Below the pieces are notes generated by a model. It ran no database searches. It was not told the DNA's origin and worked only from the letters and a program-made list of their open reading frames with translations. Position numbers and translations under genes: made by a program. Below, in pieces: positions 18,393-35,758 of a stretch of DNA of 64,000 nucleotides. Origin of the DNA: Leucobacter sp. Ag1 (lineage in GTDB: Bacteria; Actinomycetota; Actinomycetes; Actinomycetales; Microbacteriaceae); the NCBI RefSeq assembly GCF_000980875.1, contig NZ_LAYO01000109.1, forward strand, positions 1-64,000, in the 5' to 3' direction. Each line of letters opens with the position of its first letter. The stretch's first letter is position 1.

Positions 18393-18469
18393 TGGGTGTC
18401 ATCCTTCACAGTTCGTGCCGCCCCGAATCGTTGGGGACGACGGTGTCCGGCCGGTGGCCTGCGCGAAAC

Positions 18470-18505
18470 TCTACAAGCGTAGACAAAAGATGTCCAGCGC
18501 TTGTA
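18470..18505. promoter_or_regulatory. Shared divergent-promoter motif, copy 1
   Basis: TCTAC-AAGC-GTAGA (18470-18483) is a perfect 5-4-5 palindrome continuing as GACAA. A second half, CGCTTGTA (18498-18505), is the inverse of TACAAGCG within the first site. It lies in the 226-bp gap between the methyltransferase-like gene (minus) and the hydrolase (plus). The segment is AT-rich against its surroundings. Related sites are at 21144, 24173 and 35661. Confidence 0.6.
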
Positions 18506-18618
18506 TCCTGTTTTTCCACCCTTGGCGAAAAACTTGTTCGCCGGGGCCGCCCTCCTCCGGGCGCCGCACGATCCACCCGCACGATCCATCCGCACCCTTC
18601 ACCGCCGAAAGGTCCCCC

Positions 18619-19356
18619 ATGGTCCTCGCCACCCGTTCCTTCCCCGCCGAGCCCGGCACCGGATCCGCGCAGCCGCTCCCCCCGGTCGCCCTGCTGCACG
18701 GCTTCGCCGCGAGCGGCGACTCGGACTTCGTCGCGACCGGGTGGCCAGAAGCCCTCGCCGCAGCCGGACGCTCGTCGATCGTGATCGACCTGCCCGGACA
18801 CGGATCGAGCCCCGCGATCGCGGGCCCCGAGGACGCCCGAACCTCGGCCGTGATCGCCGCGATCCTGGAGGCCATCGCCCTGGCCGAACCCGAGGGCCCG
18901 GTCGACGTCATCGGCTACTCCCTCGGCGGGCGCCTCGCCTGGGAGCTGCCCGAGGCGTCGCCCCGCATCCGCCGGCTCGCGCTCGGCGGCGTGAGCCCGA
19001 TGGAGCCGTTCGCAGCGGTGGATCCGGCCGAGCTCGGCCGGGCGCTCGCGGGCGTCGCACCCGAGAACCCGCTGGTCGGCATGATGGCCGCCATGATCTC
19101 GGCACCCGGGGCCGATACCGCGTCGCTCGCGACGCTCATCCCGGGCCTCGCCTCCGAGCCGTTCGCCCCGCAGGCGAGCGCGCCCCGGGTGCCGACCCTG
19201 CTCGTCGCGGGCGAGCAGGACCCGATGAGCCAGGGCGTCGAAACGCTGCTGGACGCGCTGCCCGACGGGCGACTCGTCCGCGTGCCCGGCGACCACCGCG
19301 GCGCGCTCGACAGCCCCGAGTTCCGCGCGTCCGCGATCGAGTTCCTGGCGGGCTGA
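18619..19356 (+). CDS. Alpha/beta-hydrolase (MenH-like)
   Basis: A 245-residue alpha/beta hydrolase. The triad is visible as S101 in GYSLGG, an Asp in VAGEQDPM and a His in VPGDHRGAL. LLHGFAASGDSD near residue 26 supplies the oxyanion HG. DLPGHGSS and GYSLGGRLA resemble MenH / 3-oxoadipate lactonase-type enzymes. ATG 18619 follows AAAGG. It is divergent from the methyltransferase-phosphotriesterase operon over a TCTAC palindrome. An ester, thioester or C-C bond substrate is possible. Confidence 0.85.
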   Translation: MVLATRSFPAEPGTGSAQPLPPVALLHGFAASGDSDFVATGWPEALAAAGRSSIVIDLPGHGSSPAIAGPEDARTSAVIAAILEAIALAEPEGPVDVIGYSLGGRLAWELPEASPRIRRLALGGVSPMEPFAAVDPAELGRALAGVAPENPLVGMMAAMISAPGADTASLATLIPGLASEPFAPQASAPRVPTLLVAGEQDPMSQGVETLLDALPDGRLVRVPGDHRGALDSPEFRASAIEFLAG

Positions 19357-19384
19357 GACCCCGCCGGGGTCGTATCGTGGTCGT

Positions 19385-20056
19385 ATGCACCACGACGCCC
19401 TCATCACGCACGTCGTCGCCGCTTCTCGAGCCGCGGACGGGGCCGCGATCGCGCGGGCCTGGATCGCGAGCCTCGCGTCCAGGGATATGCGGCGACGCAG
19501 CGTCTGGCCGCGGTACGTGTTCCTCCGGCACCTCCCGGAACACGCGTTCGCACCGTCGCGAGTGTTCAACGCGACCCGGTGCGCGGTCTGCGGCCTGCGC
19601 GCCGAGGCGGACCTCGTCACGCCCGCCGAGCTCGACGACGATGCGTTCTGGTTCCGCCCTCTGAACGTCCCCTGGGCCGCTGCCGCGGTCGAGCACGTCT
19701 CGGGCGCCGACGACCCGGCGGACGTCGATCGGGGCCGCGCCGTCCTGGACGCGCTGGCCGCGCGCGTACGAGCGCTTCCGCCGAGCGCGCAGCTCACCGA
19801 ACTCGAGAAGAGCATCACGGGCGCACTGCCGTCGAACAAGCTCGAGCGCACCGTGCTGCTCGAGGCGCTCGGCACCGCGGGGATCCTTCGGGTCGGCGAG
19901 CACCCGAGCTACGCCGAGGAGTTCATCGCGTACGACGATGCGCAATCCCGTATGCCTGCCGAGCGCAACAAGCAGGAGTGGGCCTATCCGCTCCGGTTCT
20001 GGACCGGCGGCGACGGCATCTCGGAGAGCGCGCTCGAACAACTGCGCTCCTCGTGA
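19385..20056 (+). CDS. Hypothetical protein with CxxC
   Basis: A 223-residue protein that I do not recognise. It has no signal peptide or membrane segment. One CxxC occurs at about residue 66 (NATRCAVCGL), and residues 85-100 are rich in W and F (AFWFRPLNVPWAA). The C-terminal part reads YAEEFIAYDDAQSRMPAERNKQEWAYPLRFWTGGDG, which looks like an ordered domain. The start ATG at 19385 is 28 bp after the hydrolase stop, so the two could be co-transcribed. It converges on the aldo/keto reductase-like gene. Confidence 0.65.
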   Translation: MHHDALITHVVAASRAADGAAIARAWIASLASRDMRRRSVWPRYVFLRHLPEHAFAPSRVFNATRCAVCGLRAEADLVTPAELDDDAFWFRPLNVPWAAAAVEHVSGADDPADVDRGRAVLDALAARVRALPPSAQLTELEKSITGALPSNKLERTVLLEALGTAGILRVGEHPSYAEEFIAYDDAQSRMPAERNKQEWAYPLRFWTGGDGISESALEQLRSS

Positions 20057-20090
20057 GAGCGGCGCGACCCGCGGTCGGCGCGCTTCGGGA

Positions 20091-21083
20091 TCAGGCGGGC
20101 GCCCACACCCCGTCGGCGCGCACCTCGCGGTCCAGCCAGAGCTCGGCGACCGACTCGCGGATCGCGTCCGCACCGACCGCGTCGAGCAGCGAGATCGCTC
20201 CGAGGTTGTCGTCGAACTGCCGCACGCTCGATGCCCCGAAGAGCACGTTGGCGGTCGCCGGATTCGCGAGGCAGAACGCGAGTCCGAGCTGCGCGGGCGT
20301 CGCCCCGAACGATCGCGCGATCTCGGCGACCCGTGGGTAGGCCGCCACGATGCGCGCACGGATCCCGCCGACATCGGCGCCGATCTTGCGATTCGGCGAC
20401 AGCTTCCCGACCAGGATCCCGCCCTCGAACGCGTCGGACGCCTGCAGCGCGAGCGTCCCCTCGCGGAACCATCGGCCGTAGAACTCGCCCTCGGCCATGC
20501 TGCGGCGGGCGATGCCGTACTTCAGTTGCGCGAACGAGGGCGGAGTGAGCCCCTCCGCGGCCGCGGTATCGAGCGCGAGCTGCAGCGACTCGGCCGGCCA
20601 GTTGTTCACACCCCAGCTCGCGAAGCTGCCCCGGTCGATCTCGGCCTGCACGTCGCGCACCACCTGGGCGATGTCGATGTCGCTCATGAAGTCGCCGACG
20701 ACGACGGTGTCGAAGGATCCGACCTCGGCGCCGCCGCGCGCGATGCGCTCGAGCGACTCATCCATCTGCCCCGCGAACCCGGTCGCCGGGTACTCCCAGA
20801 GCCAGAGCTTGCCGCACAGCCGGTAGTCGGAGCGCGCGAGGCCGAGCTCGTGCAGCGCCTCGCCGAACAGCAGATCGGTGCGCGAGGCCTCGGCGTGCGG
20901 ACCCATGTTGTAGTACGCGACATCGAAGAAGGCCGAGCCGACTTCGACGGCGCGGGCGATCAGCGCACGTCGCTCCGCGGCCTCCATCCGGTCCCAGATG
21001 TTCCACGAGCCGAGCGCGAACACGGGCGCCTCGGGGCCGCCGGGACCCAACCGTCGGATCGGAACCTCACCGCTGAACTTCAC
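20091..21083 (-). CDS. Aldo/keto reductase-like protein (copy 1)
   Basis: A 330-residue TIM-barrel protein of the aldo/keto reductase superfamily. D54, Y58 (FFDVAYYN) and K92 (CGKLWL) match the catalytic tetrad, but the His normally placed after strand 4 is replaced by G130-D131 in DTVVVGDFM. Cofactor-side motifs are present in WGVNNW and LFGASSVRQ. GTG 21083 has GAGGAGG 6 bp upstream. It is divergent from the SDR gene and paralogous to the protein at 25421. Confidence 0.85.
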   Translation of the reverse strand: MKFSGEVPIRRLGPGGPEAPVFALGSWNIWDRMEAAERRALIARAVEVGSAFFDVAYYNMGPHAEASRTDLLFGEALHELGLARSDYRLCGKLWLWEYPATGFAGQMDESLERIARGGAEVGSFDTVVVGDFMSDIDIAQVVRDVQAEIDRGSFASWGVNNWPAESLQLALDTAAAEGLTPPSFAQLKYGIARRSMAEGEFYGRWFREGTLALQASDAFEGGILVGKLSPNRKIGADVGGIRARIVAAYPRVAEIARSFGATPAQLGLAFCLANPATANVLFGASSVRQFDDNLGAISLLDAVGADAIRESVAELWLDREVRADGVWAPA

Positions 21084-21143
21084 AACCGCCTCCTCGCAGC
21101 CCCGGGTCCGGCGTTTCGCGTGCGCGAGCCTTCCCCTTTATTT

Positions 21144-21161
21144 TCTACAATCGTATAATAA
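21144..21161. promoter_or_regulatory. Shared divergent-promoter motif, copy 2
   Basis: TCTAC-AATC-GTATA, inside an AT-rich island (TTTATTTTCTAC...TAATAAAG), lies in the 148-bp gap between the divergent aldo/keto reductase-like and SDR genes. It matches the motif at 18470 less well in its right half. It also contains ATCGTATA, half of the palindrome seen upstream of the hpa genes. Confidence 0.5.
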
Positions 21162-21231
21162 AGACTGCGCGGATTCCAGATCGGAGTCCCGAAGGGCCGG
21201 ACCCGCGGCCCGCACCGACGAAGGAGTCACC

Positions 21232-21972
21232 GTGACCACACCCCGAACCGTGCTCATCACCGGCGGCGCCGGCGGAATCGGCCAGGGCATCGCCCGCGCC
21301 TTCCTCACCGAGGGCGAGCGCGTGATCCTCGCCGACCGCGACCCCGACACCGTCGCATCGGCCGCGGACGCGCTCGGCGCCGACGCGTTGACGCTCGACA
21401 TCACCGACCCCGCCGCGGTCGCCGCGGCGTTCGCATCGCTCGCCGCCGCCGGCACCGCGGTCGATGTGCTCGTGAACAACGCCGGGATCCTCTCGGTGCA
21501 CGGCGCCGTCACCGAACTCGCGCCCGAGGCGTACCGTTCGATCCTCGAGGTCAACGTGATCGGCACCTTCGCCGTCACTCAGGCGTTCGCGCACCACCGC
21601 ATCGCGGCGGGCGGCGGCGGATCCGTCGTCAACATCTCGTCCATCGGCGGTCGCCAGCCCACCCCCGGCATGGGCGCCTACGAATCCAGCAAGGCCGCCG
21701 TCGACTCGGTGACCCGCTGGGCCGCGATCGAGCTCGCCGCGCACGGGATCCGCGTCAACGCCGTCGCCCCCGGGCCCGTGCTCACCCCCATGCTCGAGAT
21801 GGGCATGCCCGAGGGATCCCCCGCGCGGCAGGCGTGGGCGAGCCGGATCCCGCTCGGCGACCTCGCGAAGGTCACCGATATCGCCCCGGCCGTCGTGTTC
21901 CTCGCCGGATCCGGCGCCGCGCACATCACGGGCGTCAGCCTCGCGGTCGACGGCGGGCAGCTGCTCACCTGA
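21232..21972 (+). CDS. Short-chain dehydrogenase/reductase
   Basis: A 246-residue classical SDR. It has the TGGAGGIGQG nucleotide-binding motif at residue about 10, an Asp at the end of strand 2 (ADRD, favouring NAD), NNAG at about residue 83, a catalytic Ser in NISSIGG, Y-x3-K in YESSKAA, and the C-terminal VDGGQLLT. GTG 21232 is set by AAGGAG 5 bp upstream. It probably oxidizes or reduces an alcohol/ketone intermediate. It is followed by a long hairpin and a gene-free stretch. Confidence 0.92.
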   Translation: MTTPRTVLITGGAGGIGQGIARAFLTEGERVILADRDPDTVASAADALGADALTLDITDPAAVAAAFASLAAAGTAVDVLVNNAGILSVHGAVTELAPEAYRSILEVNVIGTFAVTQAFAHHRIAAGGGGSVVNISSIGGRQPTPGMGAYESSKAAVDSVTRWAAIELAAHGIRVNAVAPGPVLTPMLEMGMPEGSPARQAWASRIPLGDLAKVTDIAPAVVFLAGSGAAHITGVSLAVDGGQLLT

Positions 21973-22050
21973 GCCGCGCGCTTGCGCCCTGCGCCCTGGG
22001 CCCTGTGCCCGGCGCCCTGTGCCCTGTGCCCGGCGCCCTTGTGCTCTTGC

Positions 22051-22115
22051 GAAGGAGATTCGGCGCCGGAAGGACGATTCCGTTCAATTCGTCCTTCCGA
22101 CGCCGAATCTCCTTC
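22051..22115. repeat. Long inverted repeat (27-bp arms) after the SDR gene
   Basis: The arms GAAGGAGATTCGGCGCCGGA(AGGACGA) and their complement at 22089-22115 pair with one mismatch around an 11-nt loop. The stretch just before it (about 21985-22043) is a low-complexity run of GCCCTG/TGCCCGGCGCC units. It could end SDR transcription, but the arms are much longer than the other terminators here and no T tract follows. Confidence 0.7.
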
Positions 22116-22223
22116 CGAGGTCGGACAACCTCCGCCTCCGGTGCGGAGCCGCGGGCCTGCGGGACTGCTGGACCACGGCCACAGCACCACCGGCCCCGCG
22201 ATTCCCAGCGCTGGACCCCTGCT

Positions 22224-22552
22224 CGACGACTGGACGGCGAGTCGCACACCATTTCAGCGTCCACTCGTCGACACGGCGTCCAGTCGTCGACAGGACACCG
22301 CTCGTCGGCTCGGTGTCCGATCGTCGGCTCAGTGTCCGATCGTCAGCAAGGCACCCATTCGCCTGTTCAGCGTCCGGTCACCAGCTCAGCGTCTCCTCCT
22401 CGAACAGCGGGCATCCACCGAGGCGAACCGAGGCGTCCCGATCCGTCGAAACAGTCCAGCCCGCTCCCTGCCCTGCACCAGTGGACCCCATCCCGACGAC
22501 TGGACGGCGAGTCGCGCACCAATTCAGCGTCCACTCGTCGACAAGGCATCCA
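22224..22552. repeat. 59-bp imperfect direct repeat, two copies 270 bp apart
   Basis: Copy 1 is at 22224-22282 and copy 2 at 22494-22552, with 55 of 59 positions identical by eye. Each begins CGACGACTGGACGGCGAGTC, which itself contains the inverted pair CGACT/AGTCG, and runs into GTCCACTCGTCGACA. Each copy is the left end of one block of the 19-bp tandem array. Confidence 0.75.
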
Positions 22553-22661
22553 CTCGTCAGCAAGAGGTCCGGTCGTCGATTCAACGTCCGACCGAGAGCA
22601 CGGCGTCCGACCGGCGCCCCAACGCACGACCGTCGCCCCAACGCACGAACGGCACCCGGCA
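22259..22661. repeat. Degenerate 19-bp tandem repeat, two blocks
   Basis: GTCC-type unit starts fall at 22259, 22278, 22296, 22315, 22334, 22353, 22372, 22391, and again at 22529, 22548, 22567, 22586, 22605, 22624, 22643. The spacing is 19 bp almost throughout. Typical units are GTCCACTCGTCGACAAGGC, ATCCACTCGTCAGCAAGAG and GTCCGGTCGTCGATTCAAC. Between the blocks the spacing drifts to 22 bp. A 19-bp period is not a multiple of three, which argues against coding. There is no gene in 21973-22718. Confidence 0.75.
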
Positions 22662-22718
22662 CCCCCGGCGCCCGGACACCCCGGACACCCAGCACCCCGG
22701 GAACGCCGTCCGCACCCC

Positions 22719-24119
22719 TCAGCTCTCGCGTTCGAAGACCACGTTCCCGTCGAGCACCGTCAGATCGATCTCGACGCCGGGCAGGCCCGCCGCGCCGACC
22801 GCGAACGGGTCCTGCGCGAGCACGACGAGGTCGGCGACCTTGCCCGCCTCGACGGTCCCCTTCCAGTCGGCCGCGCGATCCTGCTGCGCCGGCACTGCGG
22901 TGTGCGCCCGCAGCAGGCCGTGCAGCCGGGCCGCCGCCGCGGCGGGATCGGCCGGGGCACCGCCGCGCAGGATCCAGGCTTCGGCGGCCGCGACGGTCTC
23001 GCGCCAGTCGGGGGCGAGGATCGGCGCGTCGGAGGAGAGCACGAGCACGCCCGCATCGAGCGCCACGGCATAGGGCCAGGGGGCGACGTCCGCGCCCAGC
23101 ACGCCGGCCATCCAGTCGGCGGTGGTGACGGCGATGCCCGGCTGCGAGTTGAACCACATGCCGAGCTCCGCGATCCGCGCGACCTGCTCGGGCGTCGCGA
23201 GGTCGCCGTGGATCACGTAGTGGCCCAGGTCGCGGGGGTGCGGCGCGCCCGGCTCGTCGGCAGCCGAGGCGACCGCGTCGAGCACGACCTCGATCGTGCG
23301 GTCGCCGGTGGCGTGCACGCCGACCTGGAGGCCCGCCCGATGCCCGGCGCGCACCATCTCGCGCAGCGCTTCTGTCTGCACCTCGAGGGTCTCGCCCTCG
23401 ACGAGCAGGCCGCCGTGGGTGCCGTCGTCGTAGGGGCGCGAACTCCACGCCTGTTTCGAGAGCGGGATCAGGTCGCCGAAGATCTTGATGCCGGCGATGC
23501 GCAGCCACTCGGGATCGCTGCCGCCCTGCGCGTCGACGAGCTCGGCGATGCCGGCCGTGACGACGTCGAGCCGGCTGGGCCCGTCGAGTATCCCGTACAG
23601 CCCGAGCAGGGTCACCCGCTGCCGCAGCTCCCCCGCCTCGGCGAGTTCGCGGTAGACGTCGAGCACCTCTCCGGCGAAGCAGCCGGTCTCGCCGTCGTCC
23701 TCGCCGGGGCCGATGCCCGGCTCGGTGAGGCTCGTGACCCCGAAGCGCGACAGCAGTTCGCCGGCGCGCAGGATCGCGGCGCGGCGGGCCGCCCGGTCGC
23801 CGGTGAGCACTCCTTCGATCTGCGCTCCGTCGGCGTGCCCGCCGAAGAAGGTGTGCGGCCAGCGCGCCCCGAGCCAGGTGGCGTGCAGGTGGGAGTCGTT
23901 GATGCCGGGGAGCACGGCGCGTCCGTCGAGTTCGATCACCCGGGTGGCCGCTCCGATCAGGGGCGCGACGTCGTCGCGGGTGCCGACGGCGAGGATCCGG
24001 CCGCCGGCGACCGCGACCGCGTCCGCGCGACTGCCCGCCGCGTCCATGACCAGCACGGGTCCGCCCTGCAGCACCAGCTCGGCGTGCTCCGCCGATGCGC
24101 TCGCACCGATTCCTGTCAT
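22719..24119 (-). CDS. YtcJ-like amidohydrolase (copy 2)
   Basis: A 466-residue amidohydrolase-superfamily protein. NDSHLHA supplies the H-x-H metal pair after the LPGI strand, HATGDRT and VIHGDL the later histidines, and LSSDAPI the catalytic Asp. The C-terminal VADLVVLAQDPFAV is the usual end of the beta-sandwich. It is shorter than the paralog at 8397 (550 residues). GAGGGAG precedes ATG 24119. It is divergent from the alcohol dehydrogenase operon across a TCTAC site. Its 3' end abuts the repeat-rich gap. Substrate unknown; probably an amide or cyclic amide. Confidence 0.88.
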   Translation of the reverse strand: MTGIGASASAEHAELVLQGGPVLVMDAAGSRADAVAVAGGRILAVGTRDDVAPLIGAATRVIELDGRAVLPGINDSHLHATWLGARWPHTFFGGHADGAQIEGVLTGDRAARRAAILRAGELLSRFGVTSLTEPGIGPGEDDGETGCFAGEVLDVYRELAEAGELRQRVTLLGLYGILDGPSRLDVVTAGIAELVDAQGGSDPEWLRIAGIKIFGDLIPLSKQAWSSRPYDDGTHGGLLVEGETLEVQTEALREMVRAGHRAGLQVGVHATGDRTIEVVLDAVASAADEPGAPHPRDLGHYVIHGDLATPEQVARIAELGMWFNSQPGIAVTTADWMAGVLGADVAPWPYAVALDAGVLVLSSDAPILAPDWRETVAAAEAWILRGGAPADPAAAAARLHGLLRAHTAVPAQQDRAADWKGTVEAGKVADLVVLAQDPFAVGAAGLPGVEIDLTVLDGNVVFERES

Positions 24120-24172
24120 TGCTCTCCCTCGAGAACGGGCGGGGCCCGGTTCGGATCGAGGGGCTTCCCGTT

Positions 24173-24190
24173 TTGGTCAACGTATGTAGA
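24173..24190. promoter_or_regulatory. Shared divergent-promoter motif, copy 3
   Basis: Read on the minus strand this is TCTAC-ATAC-GTTGA followed by CCAA. It lies in the 135-bp gap between the divergent amidohydrolase (24119) and alcohol dehydrogenase (24255) genes. Only two positions of the 14-bp core differ from the 35661 site or break the symmetry. Confidence 0.6.
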
Positions 24191-24254
24191 ATAAAACCAC
24201 ATTCTCGGCAGCAGAGCAACGACGCCGGCCGAGCCCACCGGAACGGAGCCTTCG

Positions 24255-25394
24255 ATGACGATCCCCACCTCCACCCGCGCCGCCGTGCTCGTCGAGCACG
24301 GCGCCCCTCTCGAGCTGCAGGACCTCCCGCTGCCCGAGACGGTCGAGCCCGGCGCCGCCCTCGTGCGCATCACCTGCACCACGCTCTGCGGCACCGACAT
24401 CGAGATCTGGGAGGGCCGCATGACCTTCCCCGGCATGCTGCCGATGGTGCTCGGCCACGAGATGGTCGGCGAGGTGATCGCCGTGGGCGACGGCACTGTG
24501 GACGCGCTCGGCGCACCCATCGAGGTCGGCGACCGCATCGGCTGGTCGGAGTCCGTCTGCGGCGAGTGCTTCGGCTGCACCGTGCTGCGCCAGCCGGTCG
24601 CCTGCTCGAAGCGCGGTTACGGGTTCCTGCAGCGCTCCGATGTGCCGCCCTACGCGACCGCCGGCCTCTCCGAGTACGCCTACGTCACGCCGGGTGCGCA
24701 GAAGCTGCGCCTGCCCGAGGAGGTCAAGGACACGTGGGCCTCGGCCGCCGGTTGCGCGGCGAAGACCGTGCTGCGGGCGTTCGACCGAGCGGGCGGCGTG
24801 CGGCCGGGATCCCGGGTCGTGGTGCAGGGCTCCGGTGCGCTCGGCCTGTTCGCGACCGCCGTCGCGAGCATCTCGGGCGCGGCCCAGGTCATCACCGTCG
24901 GAGCCCCCGCCTCCCGGCTCGCGCTCGCAGAGCGATTCGGCGCCACCCACACCGTCGACATCGCCGGAGGGTCGGAGGCGACCATCGCCCGGGTGCAGGA
25001 CCTGACGGGCGGCCGGGGCGCCGACCTGATCCTCGACTTCGCCGGCGCCCCCTCGATCGGCCCGGAGGCCATCGCGATGGCCGCGCAGCGCGGTGTGTTC
25101 GCCGTCGTCGGTTCCACGGGCCCCACCGGAGACCCCTTCCCCATCTCGGCGATCATGGGCAAGGAGCTCACGGTCGTCGGATCGCTCAACGGCGACGTCT
25201 CCGATTATTTCCGCTCGATCGAGTTCTTCCGCGCCTTCGCCGACCGCTTCCCCTGGGACGAACTGTTCTCGGAGCCGTGCGGTCTCGCCGAGGCGTCCGA
25301 GCGGATCGCGAACATGCACGCGCTCGGCGAGGTCAAGGCCGTGATCGATCCGCGCATCACCGAACGCACCGCCGAGCAGTCGGCCGCGCGCTAG
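24255..25394 (+). CDS. Zinc-type medium-chain alcohol dehydrogenase
   Basis: A 379-residue MDR-family dehydrogenase. The catalytic zinc site is seen as TLCGTD (Cys) and GHEMVGEV (His-Glu). The structural zinc lobe is CGECFGCTVLRQPVAC (four Cys). The NAD-binding GSGALGLFA motif is at about residue 195. GGAG stands 6 bp before ATG 24255. It heads a tight operon with the second aldo/keto reductase-like protein, two HSL-type esterases and an MFS exporter. A secondary alcohol or polyol-like substrate is typical, but not predictable here. Confidence 0.92.
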   Translation: MTIPTSTRAAVLVEHGAPLELQDLPLPETVEPGAALVRITCTTLCGTDIEIWEGRMTFPGMLPMVLGHEMVGEVIAVGDGTVDALGAPIEVGDRIGWSESVCGECFGCTVLRQPVACSKRGYGFLQRSDVPPYATAGLSEYAYVTPGAQKLRLPEEVKDTWASAAGCAAKTVLRAFDRAGGVRPGSRVVVQGSGALGLFATAVASISGAAQVITVGAPASRLALAERFGATHTVDIAGGSEATIARVQDLTGGRGADLILDFAGAPSIGPEAIAMAAQRGVFAVVGSTGPTGDPFPISAIMGKELTVVGSLNGDVSDYFRSIEFFRAFADRFPWDELFSEPCGLAEASERIANMHALGEVKAVIDPRITERTAEQSAAR

Positions 25395-25420
25395 ACCGAG
25401 CACCCGTCAGAGAGGACACC

Positions 25421-26389
25421 ATGACTTCCGTATCCCCCGTCCCCCGCCGCCGCATCGGCACGAGCGAACTCGAGACCTCGGTCTTCGCGCTCGGCTCGTG
25501 GCACGTCTACGACCGCATGCACTTCGAGGACACCGTCGCCCTGCTGCGCACCGCGATCGACCGGGGCATCACCCTGTTCGACGTCGGCGTCTATGCGACC
25601 CCCGGGTTCCCGCCGGCGTTCACCGACGTGCTCTTCTCCGCCGCGATCCGCGCCGCGGGCGTCGCCCGCGACGAGTACCTGCTCTCCGAGAAGCTCTGGC
25701 TCGAGGGGTGGGACGCGGCGACCGGGTTCCGGGCGCAGCTCGAGGCCGCACTGTTCCGCGTCGACAGCCCGAACGCCGACCTCGTGATCCTCGGCGATCT
25801 GCGCCGCGACGATCTCGAACTGCGCGACATCGTGCTCAACCTGGCCTCGCTGCGCGACGCCGGCCTGATCCGCGCCTGGGGCGTGAACAACTGGTCGGCG
25901 GGCAACGTGCAGCGCCTCATCGACATCGCCTCCGAGGAGGACGTCGAGGGTCCCGCCATCGCGCAGCTCAAGTACAGCGTCTCGCGCCGCTCGATCCCCG
26001 ACGGGGCGCCGTTCGCGAAGCTCTGGGAGCAGGGGCTCTCGATGCAGGCGTCCGACGTGATGGAGGGCGGCTATCTCGCGGGCAAGATCACGACCGACCG
26101 CGAGGTCGGGCGCGATCCGGGCGGGATCCGGCAGCGGATCATCGACGACGTCCCCGGGTTCGTCGCCCTCGCCGAGGAGCTCGGAGCGACCCCGGCGCAG
26201 CTCGCCATCGCGTTCACCCTGACCCACCCCGCGACCGCCACGACCCTGTTCGGGGCGTCGAGCGTCGCACAGCTCGAGGCGAACCTCGGCAGCCTCGAAC
26301 TGCTCGGCCGCATCGGCGCCGAGACGATCCGCGAGCGTGTCACCCCGTTCTGGGCCGACCGCGACGTCGTCGATCCGGAAGGACCGTGA
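25421..26389 (+). CDS. Aldo/keto reductase-like protein (copy 2)
   Basis: A 322-residue paralog of the protein at 20091. The shared features are ALGSWxxxDRM, D54/Y58 (LFDVGVY), K91 (SEKLWLEG), WGVNNWSAGN and LFGASSVAQ. The tetrad His position again reads G125-D126 (LVILGDL), so the change is conserved between copies. The start ATG at 25421 is 26 bp after the dehydrogenase stop, with AGAGGA upstream. The next gene starts two bases after its stop. The reaction is probably redox or isomerization of a carbonyl intermediate; the missing His makes standard reductase activity uncertain. Confidence 0.87.
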   Translation: MTSVSPVPRRRIGTSELETSVFALGSWHVYDRMHFEDTVALLRTAIDRGITLFDVGVYATPGFPPAFTDVLFSAAIRAAGVARDEYLLSEKLWLEGWDAATGFRAQLEAALFRVDSPNADLVILGDLRRDDLELRDIVLNLASLRDAGLIRAWGVNNWSAGNVQRLIDIASEEDVEGPAIAQLKYSVSRRSIPDGAPFAKLWEQGLSMQASDVMEGGYLAGKITTDREVGRDPGGIRQRIIDDVPGFVALAEELGATPAQLAIAFTLTHPATATTLFGASSVAQLEANLGSLELLGRIGAETIRERVTPFWADRDVVDPEGP

Positions 26390-26391
26390 GC

Positions 26392-29689: not shown

Positions 29690-29723
29690 GGCCGACGGGA
29701 TCGACCCGGCGGTGCTGAGCCGG

Positions 29724-29755
29724 AGGGGCGGGCGACGGCGACGTCGCCCGCCCCT
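29724..29755. terminator. Terminator after the MFS operon
   Basis: AGGGGCGGGCGAC pairs with GTCGCCCGCCCCT around GGCGAC. It lies between the convergent MFS and MepB-like genes and can serve both. Confidence 0.75.
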
Positions 29756-29775
29756 GTGCCGTCCGCTCGCCGGGC

Positions 29776-30216
29776 TCAGTACTCGTCGAAGGCGGGCGCC
29801 TGGGCGCGCTGCGTCGCCGTCGCGCTCGGGTTCAGCCCCCCGCACCAGCCCGGGTACACGCGGAAACCGCGCTTGCCCGGGCGGGGGCCGGCGGTGATCC
29901 CGAGCGCGGAGAGGTGCTCGGCGGTGAAGCGGAACGCGCCGCGGCGGCCCGCCTGCTCGACGAGCACGATCAGTCCGGCACCGACCGCGTCGGCGGCGAA
30001 GGGCGCAGTCCCGCCGGTCCCGTCCCGGCGCCAGAACGCCAGGAACGCGCCGGGCTTGGTGGGCGTGGTCCGCGCGGTGCGCAGGTGCCAGGTCCCGCCG
30101 TCGATCTCGACGACGCCCGACTCGTAGTCGCTGTTCTGTTCCTCGGGCCGCACCGCACCGACCGATTCGGGCCGTCCGACGGCGACGGCGTACTCGGCGA
30201 AGGCACGGAACTCCAT
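29776..30216 (-). CDS. MepB-family protein
   Basis: A 146-residue protein of the MepB family, named after a protein of the Staphylococcus mepRAB locus. Family features seen are PEEQNSDYESGVVEI near the N-terminus, RTARTTPTKPGAFLAFWRRD and the C-terminal GKRGFRVYPGW. There is no signal or membrane segment. ATG 30216 was chosen as the first Met with the family N-terminus. It is 37 bp from the ABC operon on the same strand and could be read through from it. Biochemical function is unknown for the family. Confidence 0.75.
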   Translation of the reverse strand: MEFRAFAEYAVAVGRPESVGAVRPEEQNSDYESGVVEIDGGTWHLRTARTTPTKPGAFLAFWRRDGTGGTAPFAADAVGAGLIVLVEQAGRRGAFRFTAEHLSALGITAGPRPGKRGFRVYPGWCGGLNPSATATQRAQAPAFDEY

Positions 30217-30253
30217 GCGATCCACGCTAGCGCGCCCGGCGCCCCACCGGACC

Positions 30254-31090
30254 CTACGACGCGACGGCGTCCTCGCGGAGCGCGAGCCACTCCCCGCGAC
30301 GCTCGGCCTGGAGCACCGGATCGGCGACGGGCGACGCCGCCAGCAGTCGCCTGCTGTACGGGTGCTGCGGGTCCCGGGTGACCTGCTCGCCGTCACCGAT
30401 CTCGACCAGGTTGCCGCGGTACGTCACGGCGACGCGGTGGCAGATGCGGCGCACGACGCCGAGGTCGTGCGACACGAAGAGGTACGAGACCCCGGTCTCG
30501 CGCTGCAGGTCGATGAGCAGGTCGAGCACGGTCGCCTGGGTCGTGAGGTCGAGCGCGCTGACGGGCTCGTCGCAGATGATCAGCCGGGGCCGGCGCACGA
30601 GGGCGCGGGCGATCGCGATGCGCTGCCGCTGGCCGCCCGAGAACTCGCTCGGATAGCGGTCGACCACGTTCGCAGGCAGGTTGACGCGCTCGAGCATCTC
30701 GCCGACGGTCCGCAGCGCCTCCGCCCGGGTGGCTCCGGCCGCCGAGAGCGGTTCGGAGAGGATCTCGCCCACCGTCATCATGGGGTTCAGCGAGCCGTAG
30801 GGATCCTGGAACACCACCTGGATGTCGGAGGCGAGCTCGCGCCGCCCGCGCCCCTTGAGGTGCGTGATGTCGCGGCCGTCGAACTCGATGCGCCCACCGG
30901 CGACCGGCACGAGGCCCAGGATCGCCTTGCCGAGCGTCGACTTGCCCGAACCGGACTCGCCGACGAGGCCGACGCACTCGCCCGGGCCGACCTCGAGCGA
31001 GACCTCGTGCAGCACCCGGTTCGGGCGCCGCTTCGAGCCGTACTCGACGATCACGTTCTCGGCCCGCAGCAGCGGGGTCGTTGCGGTCAT
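30254..31090 (-). CDS. DppF-type ABC ATPase
   Basis: A 278-residue ATPase with Walker A GESGSGKST (about 45-53), Q-loop VVFQDPYGSLNP, signature FSGGQRQR, Walker B LIICDEP and the switch His in FVSHDLG. The C-terminus has HPYSRRLL, as in peptide-importer ATPases. ATG 31090 overlaps the stop of the fused permease-ATPase by 4 bp. It is the last subunit of the second importer (35526-30254). Confidence 0.93.
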   Translation of the reverse strand: MTATTPLLRAENVIVEYGSKRRPNRVLHEVSLEVGPGECVGLVGESGSGKSTLGKAILGLVPVAGGRIEFDGRDITHLKGRGRRELASDIQVVFQDPYGSLNPMMTVGEILSEPLSAAGATRAEALRTVGEMLERVNLPANVVDRYPSEFSGGQRQRIAIARALVRRPRLIICDEPVSALDLTTQATVLDLLIDLQRETGVSYLFVSHDLGVVRRICHRVAVTYRGNLVEIGDGEQVTRDPQHPYSRRLLAASPVADPVLQAERRGEWLALREDAVAS

Positions 31091-32970
31091 GCTCCGGCCT
31101 CCTCGGTCTTCACGCGCGCGGCGAGCGCGGCTCCGCCTCCCGGAGCCCCGGCGCTCGCGAGCGCGGCTTCACGGTCGAGCTCGACACGGCTGGCCGCCCC
31201 GTCGAGCGATGCGGCGATGAGCTCGCGGGTGTAGGGGTTCTCCGCGTCGGCGAAGATCGGTCCGACGTCGTCGATCTCGACGATCGATCCGGAGCGCATC
31301 ACGACGACGCGGTCGCAGATATCGGCGACGACGCCGAAGTTGTGGGTGACGATCACGAGCGCCATCTGGTACTCCTGCTGCAGTTCGCGCAGCAGTTCGA
31401 GCACCTCGGCCTGCACGGTCACGTCGAGCGCCGTGGTCGGTTCGTCGGCGACGAGCACGGACGGCTTGCCCGCGATCGCACCGGCGATGAGCACGCGCTG
31501 CGCCATGCCGCCCGACAGCTCGTGCGGGTACGACTTCATCACGCGGACCGGATCGACGATCCCGACCCGTTCGAGCATCGCGAACGCGCGCTCGCGGGCT
31601 TCGGCGCGACTCATGCCGTGCACCGCGCGCAGCGGCTCGGTGAGCTGCGCGCCGATCGTGTACGAGGGATCGAGGTTCGTCATGGGCTCCTGCGGGATGT
31701 ACCCGATCTCGGAGCCGAGCAGGCGGGCGCGGTCCTTGCGCGACAGCGTGGTCACGTCCTCGCCGCCGATCCAGATCGCGTCGGCCGTGTAGTAGCCGGA
31801 CTTCGGCAGCAGGTCGAGCATCGAGAACACGGTCTGGGACTTGCCCGATCCGGATTCGCCGACGATGCCGAGCACCTCGCCCGGGGCGACGTCGAGGGTG
31901 ATGCCGTGCACCACCTCGACCTCGCCCGCCGCGGTCTCGTAGTTCACCCGCAGGTTCTCGAGCCGCACAGCCGAGTCGACGGCGGCGACCGAGATGGATC
32001 CGGTCGTGGTGGACTTCGGCGCGGCGCGGTTCGCGGCGTTCGCCGCCTCGACCGCGCGGCGCTGCTTGCGCGACAGCACCGGCTGCTTCGAGTTGATCAC
32101 GTCGCCGAGGGTCGACCCGAGCACCGCGAACGCGGCGATCGCGACGCCGAGCGCGATGGACGGCCAGAGCAGCAGGAGCGGCGCGGTGCGCATCACCTGG
32201 AAGCCCTCGTTCATCGCGGCGCCCCAGCCGGGGGTCGTGCCGCCGCCGATGCCGAGGAACTGCAGGCCGGCCTGCATGCCCATCGCCATACCGGCGGTGA
32301 GCGCCGACTGGATCACGATCGGTGCGATCACCTGGCGGATCACGTGGCGCGACATGATGCGCAGGTCGGTGAGGCCCGCGACCCGCGCAGCGTCGACGTA
32401 CATCTCGCCGCGCACGGCGAGCACGGTGGAGCGCGTGAGGCGGAAGTAGCCGGGGGCCATGAACACGCCGACGGTGACCATGAGGATCGTGAGGTCGTTG
32501 CCCGTGTTCGCGCCGACGATCAGCAGGATGATCATGCCGGGCACCGACTGCAGCGCGTCGCTGATCCAGGTGCCGATGCGATCGGTCGCGCCGCCGAAGT
32601 AGCCGGCGGCGAGGCCCGAGGGGACGCCCAGCACGAGCGACGTCAGGATCGAGACGAACGCGCCCCACAGCGTGATCTGGGTGCCCCAGATGAGGCGGCT
32701 CAGCACGTCGCGGCCGGTGTTGTCGCCGCCGAGCGGGTGCGCCCAGGTCGGCAGGGCCCGCGCCTGCGACAGGATCACCTCGTTGGGATCATGCGGCGAG
32801 ATCCACGGAGCGAGGATCGCGACGAGCAGGATGAGCGCGAGGACCGCGAGCGAGACGAGGCCGGCGGGGCGGCGGAGCAGCCGCACGAAGACGGATCCGC
32901 GGTCGCCGCCGCGGGTGTCGACCGCGTCGACCGTCGTCGCGTCGAGGATGGGGCCTGCGGAAGTGGTCAT
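31087..32970 (-). CDS. Fused DppC-type permease and DppD-type ATPase
   Basis: A 627-residue fusion. Residues about 1-295 form a DppC-like permease with helices starting at LVSLAVLALILLVAILAPW, then HPLGGDNTGRDVLSRLIWG and an EAA loop at RHVIRQVIAPIVIQ. A linker of about 50 residues (RKQRRAVEAANAANRAAPK) leads to an ATPase from about 340 with GESGSGKSQT near 375, ELSGGMAQR and VLVADEP. One open frame spans both parts. These are normally two proteins. ATGA overlaps on both sides show tight coupling with the DppB-type and DppF-type subunits. Confidence 0.92.
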   Translation of the reverse strand: MTTSAGPILDATTVDAVDTRGGDRGSVFVRLLRRPAGLVSLAVLALILLVAILAPWISPHDPNEVILSQARALPTWAHPLGGDNTGRDVLSRLIWGTQITLWGAFVSILTSLVLGVPSGLAAGYFGGATDRIGTWISDALQSVPGMIILLIVGANTGNDLTILMVTVGVFMAPGYFRLTRSTVLAVRGEMYVDAARVAGLTDLRIMSRHVIRQVIAPIVIQSALTAGMAMGMQAGLQFLGIGGGTTPGWGAAMNEGFQVMRTAPLLLLWPSIALGVAIAAFAVLGSTLGDVINSKQPVLSRKQRRAVEAANAANRAAPKSTTTGSISVAAVDSAVRLENLRVNYETAAGEVEVVHGITLDVAPGEVLGIVGESGSGKSQTVFSMLDLLPKSGYYTADAIWIGGEDVTTLSRKDRARLLGSEIGYIPQEPMTNLDPSYTIGAQLTEPLRAVHGMSRAEARERAFAMLERVGIVDPVRVMKSYPHELSGGMAQRVLIAGAIAGKPSVLVADEPTTALDVTVQAEVLELLRELQQEYQMALVIVTHNFGVVADICDRVVVMRSGSIVEIDDVGPIFADAENPYTRELIAASLDGAASRVELDREAALASAGAPGGGAALAARVKTEEAGA

Positions 32971-33908
32971 TTCACACGCACCTTGGGGTTGATCCAGCCG
33001 AGCACGATGTCGAGCAGGAGGTTGACGATGACGACGAAGACGACGGTGAGCACCGTCACCCCGAGCAGGGTCGGGATGTCGCCGTTCTGCGAGGCCGACT
33101 GGGTCAGCTCGCCGAGGCCCTTGATGCCGAAGATCTGCTCGACGATGATCGCGCCCGAGAGCAGCCCGACGAACATGAGCGCGAGGACGGTGAGCGAGGC
33201 CGGCGCCGAGTTGCGCAGCAGGTGCAGGGCGACGCGCCAGAACGGGAGCCCCCGGCTGCGCAGGGTGCGGGCGTAGTCCTGCGAGTCCGCGTGGATGATG
33301 CCGTTGCGCAGCTGCTCGGCGATCATGACGATCGCGCCGAGCGCGAGCGAGACGGCGGGCAGGGTGATGGATCGGAGCCAGCCCTGCAGCGATTCCGACG
33401 GCGAGACGTAGCCGATGGCCGGGAACCACTTGAGCTGCACCGCGAAGAGCATGACGAGCGCGACCGCGACCCAGAAGCCGGGCAGCGCGAACAGGATCAC
33501 GGAGCCCGCCTTGACGGCCTTGTCGATCCAGCTGTGGGATCGCAGGCCCGCGGCGGTGCCGAGCACCGCGCCGAGCACGGCCGAGAGGGCGACCGAGGCG
33601 ATCACCAGCGACAGGGTGATCGGGAACCGGATCCCGAGGGTCTTGCCGATCGGCAGGCCGTTCTTCCAGGAGGTGCCGAAGTCGCCCTGGAACAGGTGGA
33701 CGAGCCACTCCTGGTACTGCACCAGGATCGGGCGGTCGGCTCCGATCTTCGCGGTGAGCGCCTGCACCGCGTCCGGGGTCGCGTTGCTGCCGAGCAGCCC
33801 GAGCGCCGGGTTCGGGATCGCGGCGTGCGCGAGGAAGAAGGTGCCGCTCGCGACCACGAACAGCAGCACGACTCCGAAGAGGAGTCGTTTGAGCACGAAG
33901 GGGATCAT
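32967..33908 (-). CDS. DppB-type ABC permease (second importer)
   Basis: A 313-residue permease. It has an N-terminal helix (LLFGVVLLFVVASGTFFLAHA), IGADRPILVQYQEWLVHLFQGDFGTSWKNG as in DppB, several further helices and an EAA loop at LHLLRNSAPASLTVLAL. ATG 33908 is preceded by GGGAGACCC, a weak ribosome site. The gene follows the binding-protein gene after an 85-bp gap containing a hairpin, which may set its expression below that of the binding protein. Confidence 0.92.
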   Translation of the reverse strand: MIPFVLKRLLFGVVLLFVVASGTFFLAHAAIPNPALGLLGSNATPDAVQALTAKIGADRPILVQYQEWLVHLFQGDFGTSWKNGLPIGKTLGIRFPITLSLVIASVALSAVLGAVLGTAAGLRSHSWIDKAVKAGSVILFALPGFWVAVALVMLFAVQLKWFPAIGYVSPSESLQGWLRSITLPAVSLALGAIVMIAEQLRNGIIHADSQDYARTLRSRGLPFWRVALHLLRNSAPASLTVLALMFVGLLSGAIIVEQIFGIKGLGELTQSASQNGDIPTLLGVTVLTVVFVVIVNLLLDIVLGWINPKVRVK

Positions 33909-33953
33909 CGGGTCTCCCGGGTCGAACGATGAGAAGAGATGGGGAAGCGGGGT

Positions 33954-33989
33954 CGCGGGTCGGGACCGCCGAGGCGGCCCCGACCCGCG
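33954..33989 (-). terminator. Intra-operon hairpin between binding protein and permease genes
   Basis: CGCGGGTCGGG and CCCGACCCGCG form 11-bp arms, with an inner CCGCC/GGCGG stem. It starts 4 bp beyond the binding-protein stop. Such hairpins often stabilize the upstream message or cause partial termination; which applies here is inference. Confidence 0.6.
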
Positions 33990-33993
33990 GGGG

Positions 33994-35526
33994 TCACTTG
34001 GTCGAGATCTGCCGGAGCGTCGGGAACATGAGGCCGATGACCGGCTTCACGGTGAATTCCTTCGTGCTCACGTAGGTGTTCTCGTTCTGGCCCCAGACCG
34101 CGTTGTAGGCCTGGTCGGTGACGAGCTCGTTGAGCTTCTCGATCTCGGTGTTCTGCGCGTCGCCGGGGGCGGCCGCGAAGACCTTGTCGAGCTGCGCCTG
34201 CACGCCGTCGAGGGTGTCGATGCCCGGGTTCGGGTTGTACCACTGCGGCTTGGCGATCTGGCGCTCGACGGTCGCGACCGGGTTCGAGTCCATCGCGATC
34301 ACCGCGATGTACATCGGGTACTTGCCGGCCTTGCCCATGTAGCTCATGAAGTCGGTCGCGTCCCACTTCACCTTGATGCCGAGCTGCTTGAAGGTCTGCT
34401 CGGTGATCGCCTGGTAGGGCTGGAACGGCGGGGCCATCGGCATGCTGATCTCGAAGCCGTTCGGGTAGCCGGCCTCGGCGAGCAGCTGCTTCGCCTTCGC
34501 GATGTCGTACTTGTAGCGGTCGTTGAGCGACTTCACGTAGCCCGTCTGGTCGACCGGGAAGAACTGGTTGGTGACGTAGCCCTGTCCCTGCGCGATGGAG
34601 GTGTGCATCGCCTGCGTGTCGAAGGCGTAGTTGAGCGCCTGGCGCACCTTCAGCTTGCCGATCGGCGAACCCATGGCGCCCGAGCGGTCGGCGAACTGCA
34701 GGCCGGCCCACATCGAGAGGCCCTTGGCGACGTTCCAGTCGTTCTTCTTCGCGGCATCGCTGCCGGTCTTATCGGTGTAGATGAGGTTCAGCTGGCCGGC
34801 CTCCATCGCGTTGAGCATGGCGGTGCCGTCGCTCAGCGGAGTGATCTTCAGCGGGTCGAACGGGAACTGCTTCGCGTCCCAGTGGTCCTTCACCTTGTCG
34901 AAGTCGTACTCGCTGCCCGGGGTGCTGTTCTCCCCCAGCGTGTAGGGACCGGAACCGACGGGCTTCTCGGAGAGCTTGCCGCCGGAGATCGCCTTCGGCG
35001 AAGCGAGGTAGCTGCGCCCGAGGCCCATGAGGTACAGCATCGTGTCGTCGCGCTTCTTCATGTGGAAGACGATCGTGTGGTCGTCGGTCTTCTCGATCGA
35101 CTCGACGTTCGTGTAGGCCTCCTGCGAGGTCGGCCCCTTCTGCAGGTGCTCGAGGCCCGTCACGGCGGCCGCCGCGTCGAGCTTGGTGCCGTCCGAGAAC
35201 TTCGCGTCGGTGCGGATGTCGAAGGTGACGGTCTTGAAATCGGACGACACCTCCCACTTCTTGGCGATGCCCGGCTGCGGCTCGCCCTTCTCGTTGGTGG
35301 TCAGGAGCGCGTCGTAGACCGCGGACAGATAGGGACCGTCGAAGCCGAGGTCCGCGCTCGCGGGATCCCAGTTGGTGACGTCCAGGAAGTTGCCGATGCT
35401 GAGCGGCACGCTCGCACCGGCCGCGGCACCGTTGCCGCCGTCGCCGGAGCCGTCGGACGAGCAGCCGGTGAGCGCGAGCGCGACGGCTGCGAGCGCCGCG
35501 ACGCCCGTCAGAGTTTTCTTCATCAT
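33994..35526 (-). CDS. Family 5 extracellular solute-binding lipoprotein (second importer)
   Basis: A 510-residue binding protein. MMKKTLTGVAALAAVALALTGC gives a signal peptide with lipobox LTGC, followed by a flexible SSDGSGDGGNGAAAG stretch. The core shows DPP-family blocks: VTFDIRTDAKFSDGTKLDA, KVRQALNYAFDTQAM and FAAAPGDAQNTEIEKLNELV. ATG 35526 and ATG 35523 are adjacent; the first was taken, with AGAGAAG upstream. It is the first gene of the 35526-30254 importer and divergent from the homoprotocatechuate operon. Confidence 0.93.
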   Translation of the reverse strand: MMKKTLTGVAALAAVALALTGCSSDGSGDGGNGAAAGASVPLSIGNFLDVTNWDPASADLGFDGPYLSAVYDALLTTNEKGEPQPGIAKKWEVSSDFKTVTFDIRTDAKFSDGTKLDAAAAVTGLEHLQKGPTSQEAYTNVESIEKTDDHTIVFHMKKRDDTMLYLMGLGRSYLASPKAISGGKLSEKPVGSGPYTLGENSTPGSEYDFDKVKDHWDAKQFPFDPLKITPLSDGTAMLNAMEAGQLNLIYTDKTGSDAAKKNDWNVAKGLSMWAGLQFADRSGAMGSPIGKLKVRQALNYAFDTQAMHTSIAQGQGYVTNQFFPVDQTGYVKSLNDRYKYDIAKAKQLLAEAGYPNGFEISMPMAPPFQPYQAITEQTFKQLGIKVKWDATDFMSYMGKAGKYPMYIAVIAMDSNPVATVERQIAKPQWYNPNPGIDTLDGVQAQLDKVFAAAPGDAQNTEIEKLNELVTDQAYNAVWGQNENTYVSTKEFTVKPVIGLMFPTLRQISTK

Positions 35527-35660
35527 GTCTACTTCTCTCGGTATTCGGACATGCGGGTAGGTATGGGGTGAGGCTCCGCCTGCGTATCCACCTCGCCTGT
35601 CCGGAACTCGAGGTTCCCCGGCTGCGATGGACGCCACGTCGGTGTGCCGTCGCGTTTCAT

Positions 35661-35677
35661 TCTACAAACGTTGACAA
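35661..35677. promoter_or_regulatory. Shared divergent-promoter motif, copy 4
   Basis: TCTAC-AAAC-GTTGA followed by CAA lies 134 bp upstream of the minus-strand binding-protein start. It matches 18470 at 15 of 17 positions (TCTACAAGCGTAGACAA versus TCTACAAACGTTGACAA). Confidence 0.6.
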
Positions 35678-35758
35678 AAACCACAAGCGGTCGCGAGATC
35701 AATTTTCGGCAACGGTTCGAACGGTCGAAAATCCGACTCGCTGGCCCCGGCCGGGCTG

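Follow-up and report, generated by a model that had tools for sequence, protein, structure and literature searches.

A conserved palindrome in four divergent promoters of a Leucobacter uptake and catabolic cluster as the probable operator of a TetR-family repressor

In a 64,000-nucleotide stretch of Leucobacter sp. Ag1 (contig NZ_LAYO01000109.1, positions 1 to 64,000; hereafter the window), we observe one palindrome of the type TCTAC-N4-GTWGA in four gaps between divergent genes of an uptake and catabolic cluster. The sites are specific to this cluster, deeply conserved in related loci, and linked both to a TetR-family protein encoded at 14430-15026 and to the type of its recognition helix. 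We interpret them as operators of this protein, which would act as a ligand-released repressor of the importer and catabolic genes, and we assign this interpretation, which draws on sequence comparison, a probability of roughly 0.84. Because the same switch stands beside the same TetR gene in many soil bacteria, one repressor very probably controls the uptake and breakdown of one compound.

The initial annotation had reported four palindromic sites, every one in a divergent gap, and a scan of the window bears this out. TCTACAAGCGTAGA (18470-18483) lies between the O-methyltransferase-like gene omt and the hydrolase gene abh, and TCTACAAACGTTGA (35661-35674) between the binding-protein gene sbp and hpaH; both match the pattern exactly. 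TCTACAATCGTATA (21144-21157) does lie in the gap between the aldo-keto reductase gene akr1 and the short-chain dehydrogenase gene sdr, but its match to the pattern is inexact, with one mismatch. These three are given without strand. The minus-strand match TCTACATACGTTGA between the amidohydrolase gene amh and the alcohol dehydrogenase gene adh is present as claimed, though its position is 24177-24190 and not 24173, a shift of four bases. Direct reading agrees that the 17-mers TCTACAAGCGTAGACAA (18470) and TCTACAAACGTTGACAA (35661) are identical at 15 of 17 positions. With up to one mismatch allowed, the window holds nine strand-matches in five places, against a mean of 0.90 in shuffled sequence, and none of 100 shuffles reached nine. 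The shared palindrome in the four divergent gaps is confirmed as real and beyond chance.

Exact matches to TCWACN4GTWGA occur at three places in the strain's own genome (3,536,703 bases), all in divergent gaps of the window, and the reversed control pattern occurs once. The proposed comparison of coding with promoter DNA therefore yields, for the exact pattern, three of three matches in promoter gaps. The relaxed pattern is unspecific by itself, since TCTACAWNCGTWGA with up to two mismatches finds 27 places in the genome versus 20 for its reversed control. We scored these 27 places with an independent, cross-validated matrix built from 91 distinct non-Leucobacter 20-mers (consensus TAGTCTACAATTGTAGACTA): the four window sites reach 25.7 to 33.7 bits, and the other 23 places at most 12.9. 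Within the window the matrix ranks 21144 first (33.7 bits), followed by 35661 (27.0), 24177 (26.1), 18470 (25.7), 18515 (13.7), 14351 (11.5), and 14390 (6.1), so that nothing outside the four main sites exceeds 14 bits; the expectation per 64 kb is 0.000 matches above 15 bits and 0.17 above 10 bits. Matrix positions beyond the search pattern are also constrained, namely the outer bases and an inner purine/pyrimidine pair. Searching the same genome with a sequence profile returned three matches at E ≤ 10, with E values of 0.4 to 1.3; each lies in the window, and 24177 is not listed among them. The genome-wide counts are pattern searches plus this profile rather than a full matrix scan.

To follow the sites across genomes, we used 79 loci chosen solely by similarity of the TetR protein (from the best 80 of 109 candidates), so that gap counts are unbiased with respect to sites. 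They span Leucobacter, Rothia, Nonomuraea, Spongiactinospora, Amycolatopsis, Saccharopolyspora, Streptomyces, and Microbacterium, as well as the alphaproteobacteria Devosia, Maritalea, and Cucumibacter. These loci contain 239 sites within one mismatch of TCTAC-N4-GTAGA and 44 of these are exact; a Markov model predicts 3.4, and the reversed pattern gives nine. At least one site is present in 74 of the 79 loci, and not one of the 239 falls inside any gene that could be matched by homology to the 25 window proteins compared. The conservation in orthologous gaps that had been suggested as a check is what we observe. The omt/abh divergent gap has a site in 13 of 13 Leucobacter loci and in the single case elsewhere (1/1), the akr1/sdr gap in 12 of 13 and in 43 of 43 other divergent pairs, and the amh/adh gap in 10 of 10 and 3 of 4 others. 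The akr1/sdr miss (locus L068) has a two-mismatch site of 28.0 bits in the same gap; for the amh/adh miss (L134) the matrix finds nothing in the gap, and matches of 21.9 and 19.1 bits lie upstream of sbp.

Across the Leucobacter gaps the palindrome arms are 99 to 100% identical versus 48 to 63% for the remainder of the gap. These identities used 12, 12, 9, and 18 relatives; the near-identical L058 was omitted for three gaps, though not for sbp/hpaH, from which L161, L169, L170, L172, and L180 were omitted. The sbp regions L155-L176 and L180 were picked for having a site, which biases the sbp/hpaH identity except for L177; that locus, picked without a site, shows a degenerate sbp site of 13.1 bits. 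Where regions were picked as the third exact site in a Leucobacter genome, 22 of 23 of these sites lie upstream of sbp. The exception, L166 (Leucobacter salsicius, G031), has an extra exact site near 3361, between amidohydrolase-like and short-chain dehydrogenase-like genes, a possible added member. In genera other than Leucobacter, the 400 bp preceding sdr contain a site in 42 of 45 cases, those preceding amh in 28 of 30, and those preceding akr1 in 44 of 59. Over all loci, no site was found upstream of oppF (0/61), pte (0/14), hsl1 (0/11), mfs (0/6), or hpaE (0/28), and one upstream of hsl2 (1/3). Such gene-to-gene differences partly reflect gene order, because an operon-internal gene needs no site. 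Labels of akr2 in these locus comparisons are unreliable, and akr2 contributes to no count behind a conclusion.

The predicted repressor gene tetR (14430-15026, plus strand) encodes TetR_N (PF00440, E 1.1e-12, 47.9 bits against a cut-off of 24) and TetR_C_6 (PF13977, E 6e-9) domains. Its AlphaFold model (predicted local distance difference test score, 89.7) has helix-turn-helix helices at residues 32-39 and 45-48 and finds its best Foldseek matches among TetR-family structures, with their all-helical fold; the protein of the nearest named relative, Leucobacter sp. OLIS6, is 97% identical. The recognition-helix region comprises residues 40-50, GFANGALKHYF, in which ANGALK (A42-K47), within the predicted helix-turn-helix, is invariant in 80 of 80 TetR sequences.

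TetR and the sites travel together across genomes. Among 54 Leucobacter genomes, 25 have a TetR orthologue at least 70% identical, and 24 of these carry at least two exact sites within 30 kb on one contig; clustered exact sites were found in only 1 of the 29 genomes without the orthologue. The reverse test gives the same picture: akr1 (E ≤ 1e-75) is present in nine of a sample of 299 family genomes, and all nine hold the TetR (E ≤ 1e-39), versus 11 of 299 overall. At 11 of 11 loci picked by akr1 (the window included, and two from a class-wide sample), a site lies in the gap upstream of akr1, nine of them within one mismatch and two found by the matrix (26.2 bits in L204 and 25.6 in L199). In Embleya NBC_00888, homologues of omt, akr1, sdr, adh, amh, and the hpa genes fit within a 31-kb stretch that contains neither a TetR of this type nor a site above 9 bits; no such TetR is listed at E ≤ 1e-25 on its 5.7-Mb plasmid, in a search that covered the plasmid and not the chromosome.

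The motif also follows the type of recognition helix among TetR paralogues. Among the 28 paralogue matches of HGA[IL] type, a single one has a site within 3 kb, namely the omt/abh operator of an adjacent orthologue (L248); the 28 include three genes twice (L061/L223, L065/L221, and L068/L226) and four loci with 1.5 kb of flank. Close to HSAF paralogues, TCTCC-N4-GTAGA, a one-base variant of the present operator, occurs in four of six distinct cases (L066:6395, the same as L220:3440; L067:6330, the same as L227:3641; L213:3637; and L214:3663), paralogues met twice being counted once. This pairing suggests a readable helix-to-operator code. A distant NGALK paralogue, 32% identical (G009, L179), adjoins two exact TCTACN4GTAGA sites (6080 and 6125). 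The TetR protein had been named as a candidate regulator by the initial annotation, and this comparative evidence, comprising co-occurrence, recognition-helix type, and the Embleya negative, supports the choice. Beside the paralogue in L179 we also observe a second binding-protein gene and one resembling an esterase gene, an arrangement that may be a duplicated regulon. On the conjugative plasmid pTC2 of Paenarthrobacter aurescens (L250), a 28.9-bit site at 7927 lies about 60 bp upstream of a gene for a 38%-identical TetR, in the gap between that gene and a divergent copper amine oxidase gene. Among annotated collections the search covered plasmids, and its informative records were this plasmid and that of Embleya.

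Several observations weigh against assigning the sites to this TetR. The Fisher tables for co-occurrence ignore phylogeny, and because the genomes are related their p values overstate independence. One genome (G069), a metagenome-assembled genome with 8% contamination, has clustered sites without the orthologue. A site lies within 3 kb of NGALK-type TetR genes in only 41 of 91 matches, sites often being farther off, and NGALK homologues of 34 to 38% identity (L228, L230, and L231) have none in about 3 kb. Five of the 79 loci lack a site (L071, L075, L077, L106, and L126), three of them being contigs of 4.5 to 10.2 kb; among these, L106 of Saccharopolyspora oryzae has this TetR type. In Leucobacter cx-328 (G067, L071/L178), a 70%-identical TetR stands beside hpa genes without the module there, and no site within one mismatch occurs in 20.6 kb around it, a 30.5-bit site lying on another contig. 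Embleya is a single case, with its TetR search confined to the 5.7-Mb plasmid. Upstream sites (within 400 bp, outside Leucobacter) are frequent but not universal for sbp (25/40), omt (29/58), abh (6/43), adh (4/26), or tetR (16/57), and other Leucobacter genomes contain seven further exact sites away from recognized cluster genes (L181-L183, L186-L188, and L194). Finally, the constraint on outer bases in the matrix may partly reflect AT-rich promoter DNA.

Outside the module, the 30.5-bit sequence TCTACGTGTGTAGA occurs in both cx-328 (L181:4007, G067) and cx-42 (L187:3216, G014), in surroundings that are 60% identical. It is a possible extra target, including in cx-328, the strain that lost the module.

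The weak fifth match reported at 14390 also exists. TCTACACTGGGTGA (14390-14403, plus strand), upstream of tetR, has one mismatch to TCTACN4GTWGA and two to the perfect palindrome. We regard it as probably a real but half-degenerate, autoregulatory operator because the half-site is kept in relatives; its own score would not stand out. All 16 Leucobacter loci have the TCTAC half-site upstream of tetR, and none of them (0/16) comes within one mismatch of the full site; the homologous Leucobacter element mostly reads TCTACAnTGGAGGA. In 16 loci of Nonomuraea, Spongiactinospora, Actinocrispum, and Amycolatopsis, CCTACACTGGTAGA lies 23 to 61 bp upstream of tetR, and sites within one mismatch near tetR number 16 in the 57 loci of other genera. 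No site was seen near tetR in Microbacterium, Streptomyces, or Devosia-type loci, in which tetR comes after oppF. The match at 14351 was rejected as a tetR operator, as it is not kept in the aligned part of L058. A second, degenerate operator in the omt/abh gap (18515-18528, without strand) lies about 45 bp from the 18470 site; it is what remains of an operator that most other Leucobacter omt/abh gaps keep in intact, TCTACTARCATAGA-like form, about 45 bp from the first site.

The idea that one regulator ties the uptake system to most catabolic genes is supported comparatively, with the hpa operon as the part that probably falls away. The sbp/hpaH gap (35527-35800) holds both the TCTAC site and a separate palindrome upstream of hpaH, GATCGTATACGATC (35759-35772, without strand), a predicted GntR operator; a second GntR-type site with two mismatches lies upstream of hpaG (37569-37582, without strand). 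The predicted hpa regulator itself, gntR of the FCD subfamily (39109-39783, plus strand; PF00392, E 1.3e-14; PF07729, E 5.2e-21), is encoded inside the hpa gene run, so that the operon has both a GntR/FCD regulator and a conserved palindrome in its promoter. GATCGTATACGATC has a single exact copy in the strain's genome, with one mismatch at C74:10721 and two mismatches at six places, 37569 included. Upstream of hpaH in 23 distinct loci (L071 and L178, from the same genome, counted once), ATCGTATACGAT is exact in 20, differs at one position in two, and is missing from L172; it is also exact upstream of hpaG in L069 and L071. HpaH, HpaE, and HpaD exceed their NCBIfam cut-offs, and the HpaI match is below its own. 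From this arrangement we infer that the GntR at 39109 acts at the ATCGTATACGAT palindrome, and we consider it not likely to bind the TCTAC sites. Control of 4-hydroxyphenylacetate meta-cleavage genes by HpaR/GntR-type proteins is a matter of local hpa-operon regulators, and it parallels the neighboring hpa operon, not the TCTAC sites.

The list of gaps had implied that the TetR regulon also takes in the hpa operon, with control exerted at 35661; this is the alternative that survives best, and we still consider it unlikely. The site lies about 126 bp upstream of hpaH and is present in most examined Leucobacter sbp/hpaH gaps. However, it stays with sbp in L161 and L170, where hpaH does not adjoin, for which reason we assign it to the sbp promoter; and the hpaH promoters of L069, L071, and L179 have no TCTAC site within 140 bp, yet ATCGTATACGAT is present. 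Because the site follows sbp and the hpa operon has its own GntR-type palindrome, the hpa genes probably fall outside the TetR regulon or belong to it only in a minor way. The simplest reading is of two adjacent regulons, with TetR for import and upper catabolism and GntR for ring cleavage.

Two further observations concern the GntR-type palindrome. The one-mismatch copy on another contig (C74:10721-10734, L255) lies at the start of a major facilitator superfamily (MFS) transporter gene. In Embleya (L249), two-mismatch palindromes precede hpaG, abh, and amh (5963, 11419, and 24357), in numbers too small to judge; the module there, its TetR lost, may have been taken over by GntR.

The geometry of sites and promoters fits a repressor blocking polymerase on both sides. 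A promoter scan of 14000-33999 returned two sigma-70-like promoters, with 0.4 expected, and both overlap the 18470 site, which covers a -10 element, TAGAGT (minus strand, omt), and a -35 element, TAGACA (plus strand, abh). The same scan of 35300-38000 found no sigma-70-like promoter. By eye, the right arm of 21144 is TATAAT, -10-like for sdr; an arm of 24177 runs into TAGAAT, -10-like for adh; and the minus-strand arm of 35661 runs into TAGAAT, -10-like for sbp.

We propose that a dimer of the TetR protein (14430-15026) would bind the approximately 20-bp palindrome, with core TCTAC-R-N2-Y-GTAGA, which overlaps or adjoins the core promoter in every divergent gap, thereby blocking both directions at once. 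When no inducer is present, omt-pte2-pte, abh, akr1, sdr, amh, adh-akr2-hsl1-hsl2-mfs, and sbp-oppB-oppDC-oppF would be silenced, and TetR would probably hold down its own gene from the weak 14390 site. What the Opp-type importer takes up, either a substrate or an early intermediate, may then bind the C-terminal domain and release TetR, a step proposed by analogy with the family. The neighboring ring-cleavage operon would remain mainly under GntR (39109) at ATCGTATACGAT. Binding and repression are inferred from the comparisons above, as are the operon extents and the compound.

An activating or dual role for TetR at these sites, in place of simple repression, seems improbable. A minority of TetR-family proteins do activate, AtrA being an example in the available text of PMC3511530, but the same text has most tested members repressing, and overlap of the 18470 site with -10 and -35 elements is the position expected for a repressor. 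Still less probable is that another regulator traveling with the cluster, for instance the hpa GntR, binds the sites and TetR is a bystander. The whole cluster co-occurs, so linkage alone cannot separate its members, and GntR homologues are present in some loci (L069, L071, L079, L133 at 26%, and L249). Yet, in a survey of the loci that covered TetR and GntR among regulator families, a GntR homologue accompanies only 4 of the 79 loci while sites are found in 74; neither Embleya, which has the GntR but no TetR nearby, nor L071, which also has the GntR, carries any sites; the GntR has its own palindrome of the ATCGTATACGAT type; and the motif tracks the helix type of TetR paralogues. Least probable of all is a motif that merely reflects conserved promoter architecture, in which -10 elements (TAGAAT/TATAAT) stand back to back within AT-rich islands while the genome is high in GC: at least one arm continues into TANNNT in 149 of the 239 sites (a descriptive count without a null), and the two sigma-70-like promoters overlap the 18470 site, but exact matches occur nowhere else in 3.54 Mb, clustered sites accompany this TetR and are missing from TetR-less Embleya, and both arms are 99 to 100% conserved, including arm bases outside a -10 element.

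TetR regulons with repeated palindromes are already well known, and the arrangement proposed here resembles TetR/tetA of Tn10, in which a helix-turn-helix protein acts on palindromes of about 15 to 20 bp between divergent promoters and one dimer blocks both directions. KstR and BetI, also of the TetR family, repress genes of catabolism or uptake from palindromic operators; the present protein scores far below the NCBIfam cut-offs of both (60.3 versus 118 bits for BetI and 39.3 versus 280 for KstR). McbR of Corynebacterium glutamicum, also of the TetR family, recognizes the palindrome TAGAC-N6-GTCTA, with two 5-bp arms and a short spacer, whereas the present operator has other arms, another spacer, and another pathway. 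The nearest solved structure is 2NX4 (RHA06780, Rhodococcus RHA1; full-length sequence E 1e-33; Foldseek E 5e-11, template modeling score 0.83), and in the literature on it we found only its use as a drawing example of the fold, with no operator, ligand, or function.

According to the available text of PMC3511530, the target of a TetR-family protein can be taken as the divergent gene within 200 bp of the regulator gene. In the window, by contrast, the regulated gaps lie 3 to 21 kb from tetR with no closely divergent target, and the upstream binding-protein gene (longest open reading frame start at 13735) is about 700 bp off; this 200-bp rule would miss the proposed targets because none adjoins tetR. 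The literature search returned nothing relevant on this regulator, operator, or module, in a search mostly outside subscription journals, so that absence from print is unproven. PMC6868719, a match of that search, uses the words in other contexts and without "operator" or "regulon".

What is unusual in the present case is that one anonymous TetR can be assigned a predicted 20-bp operator, about 17 predicted target genes that do not adjoin it, and a record across two phyla. The conserved regulon delimits a catabolic module common to Leucobacter, Microbacterium, Amycolatopsis, Streptomyces, and Devosia-type bacteria; knowing its inducer would indicate which compound is involved, and the pair of TetR and operator could be used as a biosensor for that compound. 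A wider and more tentative proposal, which we hold at somewhat less than even chances, is that proteins of this TetR clade serve specifically to switch a catabolic module not described before, which has spread with its operator set between Actinobacteria and Alphaproteobacteria, ANGALK reading TCTAC-N4-GTAGA and AHSAF reading TCTCC-N4-GTAGA. The module would comprise Opp-type import, an O-methyltransferase-like protein, a hydrolase, reductases, dehydrogenases, and an amidohydrolase, with a phosphotriesterase-like lactonase in Leucobacter.

On the minus strand, the probable omt operon consists of omt (17418-18392; PF08100 and PF00891; relatives in the PDB are MTHB methyltransferase/DSYB, E 3e-19), pte2 in the middle (16195-17418, no Pfam match), and, at its end, pte, a phosphotriesterase-family lactonase-like gene (15080-16198; PF02126, E 5.4e-59). 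The alpha/beta hydrolase gene abh (18619-19356, plus strand; PF00561, E 3.3e-18) is followed by akr1 (20091-21083, minus strand; PF00248, E 4.7e-20; nearest PDB entry AKR6D1, 8hw0, E 5e-27), sdr (21232-21972, plus strand; PF13561, E 6.7e-59), and amh (22719-24119, minus strand; PF07969, E 2.3e-42). The genes of the probable operon adh-akr2-hsl1-hsl2-mfs (24255-29689, plus strand) overlap or are closely spaced; adh encodes a zinc alcohol dehydrogenase, hsl1 and hsl2 encode Abhydrolase_3-type alpha/beta hydrolases, and mfs encodes a Bcr/CflA exporter. Within it, akr2 (25421-26389) is an aldo-keto reductase gene by similarity to akr1, and an akr1-like match stands at the same place in L068 and L193. 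The probable operon sbp-oppB-oppDC-oppF (30254-35526, minus strand; PF00496, E 2.3e-60; PF00528; NCBIfam Opp/Nik) encodes an oligopeptide/nickel-type ATP-binding cassette importer. The combination of Opp-type importer, reductases, hydrolases, and methyltransferase-like protein suggests a complex natural product, and the adjoining hpa operon weakly suggests an aromatic compound. Substrate guesses from PDB relatives were dropped as unconvincing.

Upstream of tetR we also observe a second Opp-type transporter region (6261-13735, with SBP_bac_5 at 11954-13735 and a permease at 6264-7271), which has no TCTAC site within one mismatch. Between sdr and amh (22000-22700), many short imperfect repeats and no convincing gene are seen by eye. 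A different palindrome, TGTACAARCGT[TA]CA, recurs elsewhere in the genome (C44:9404/9429, C66:45111/45145, C56:6183, C86:14258, and C93:6472), with two close opposite-strand pairs among its copies, and belongs to a different regulon.

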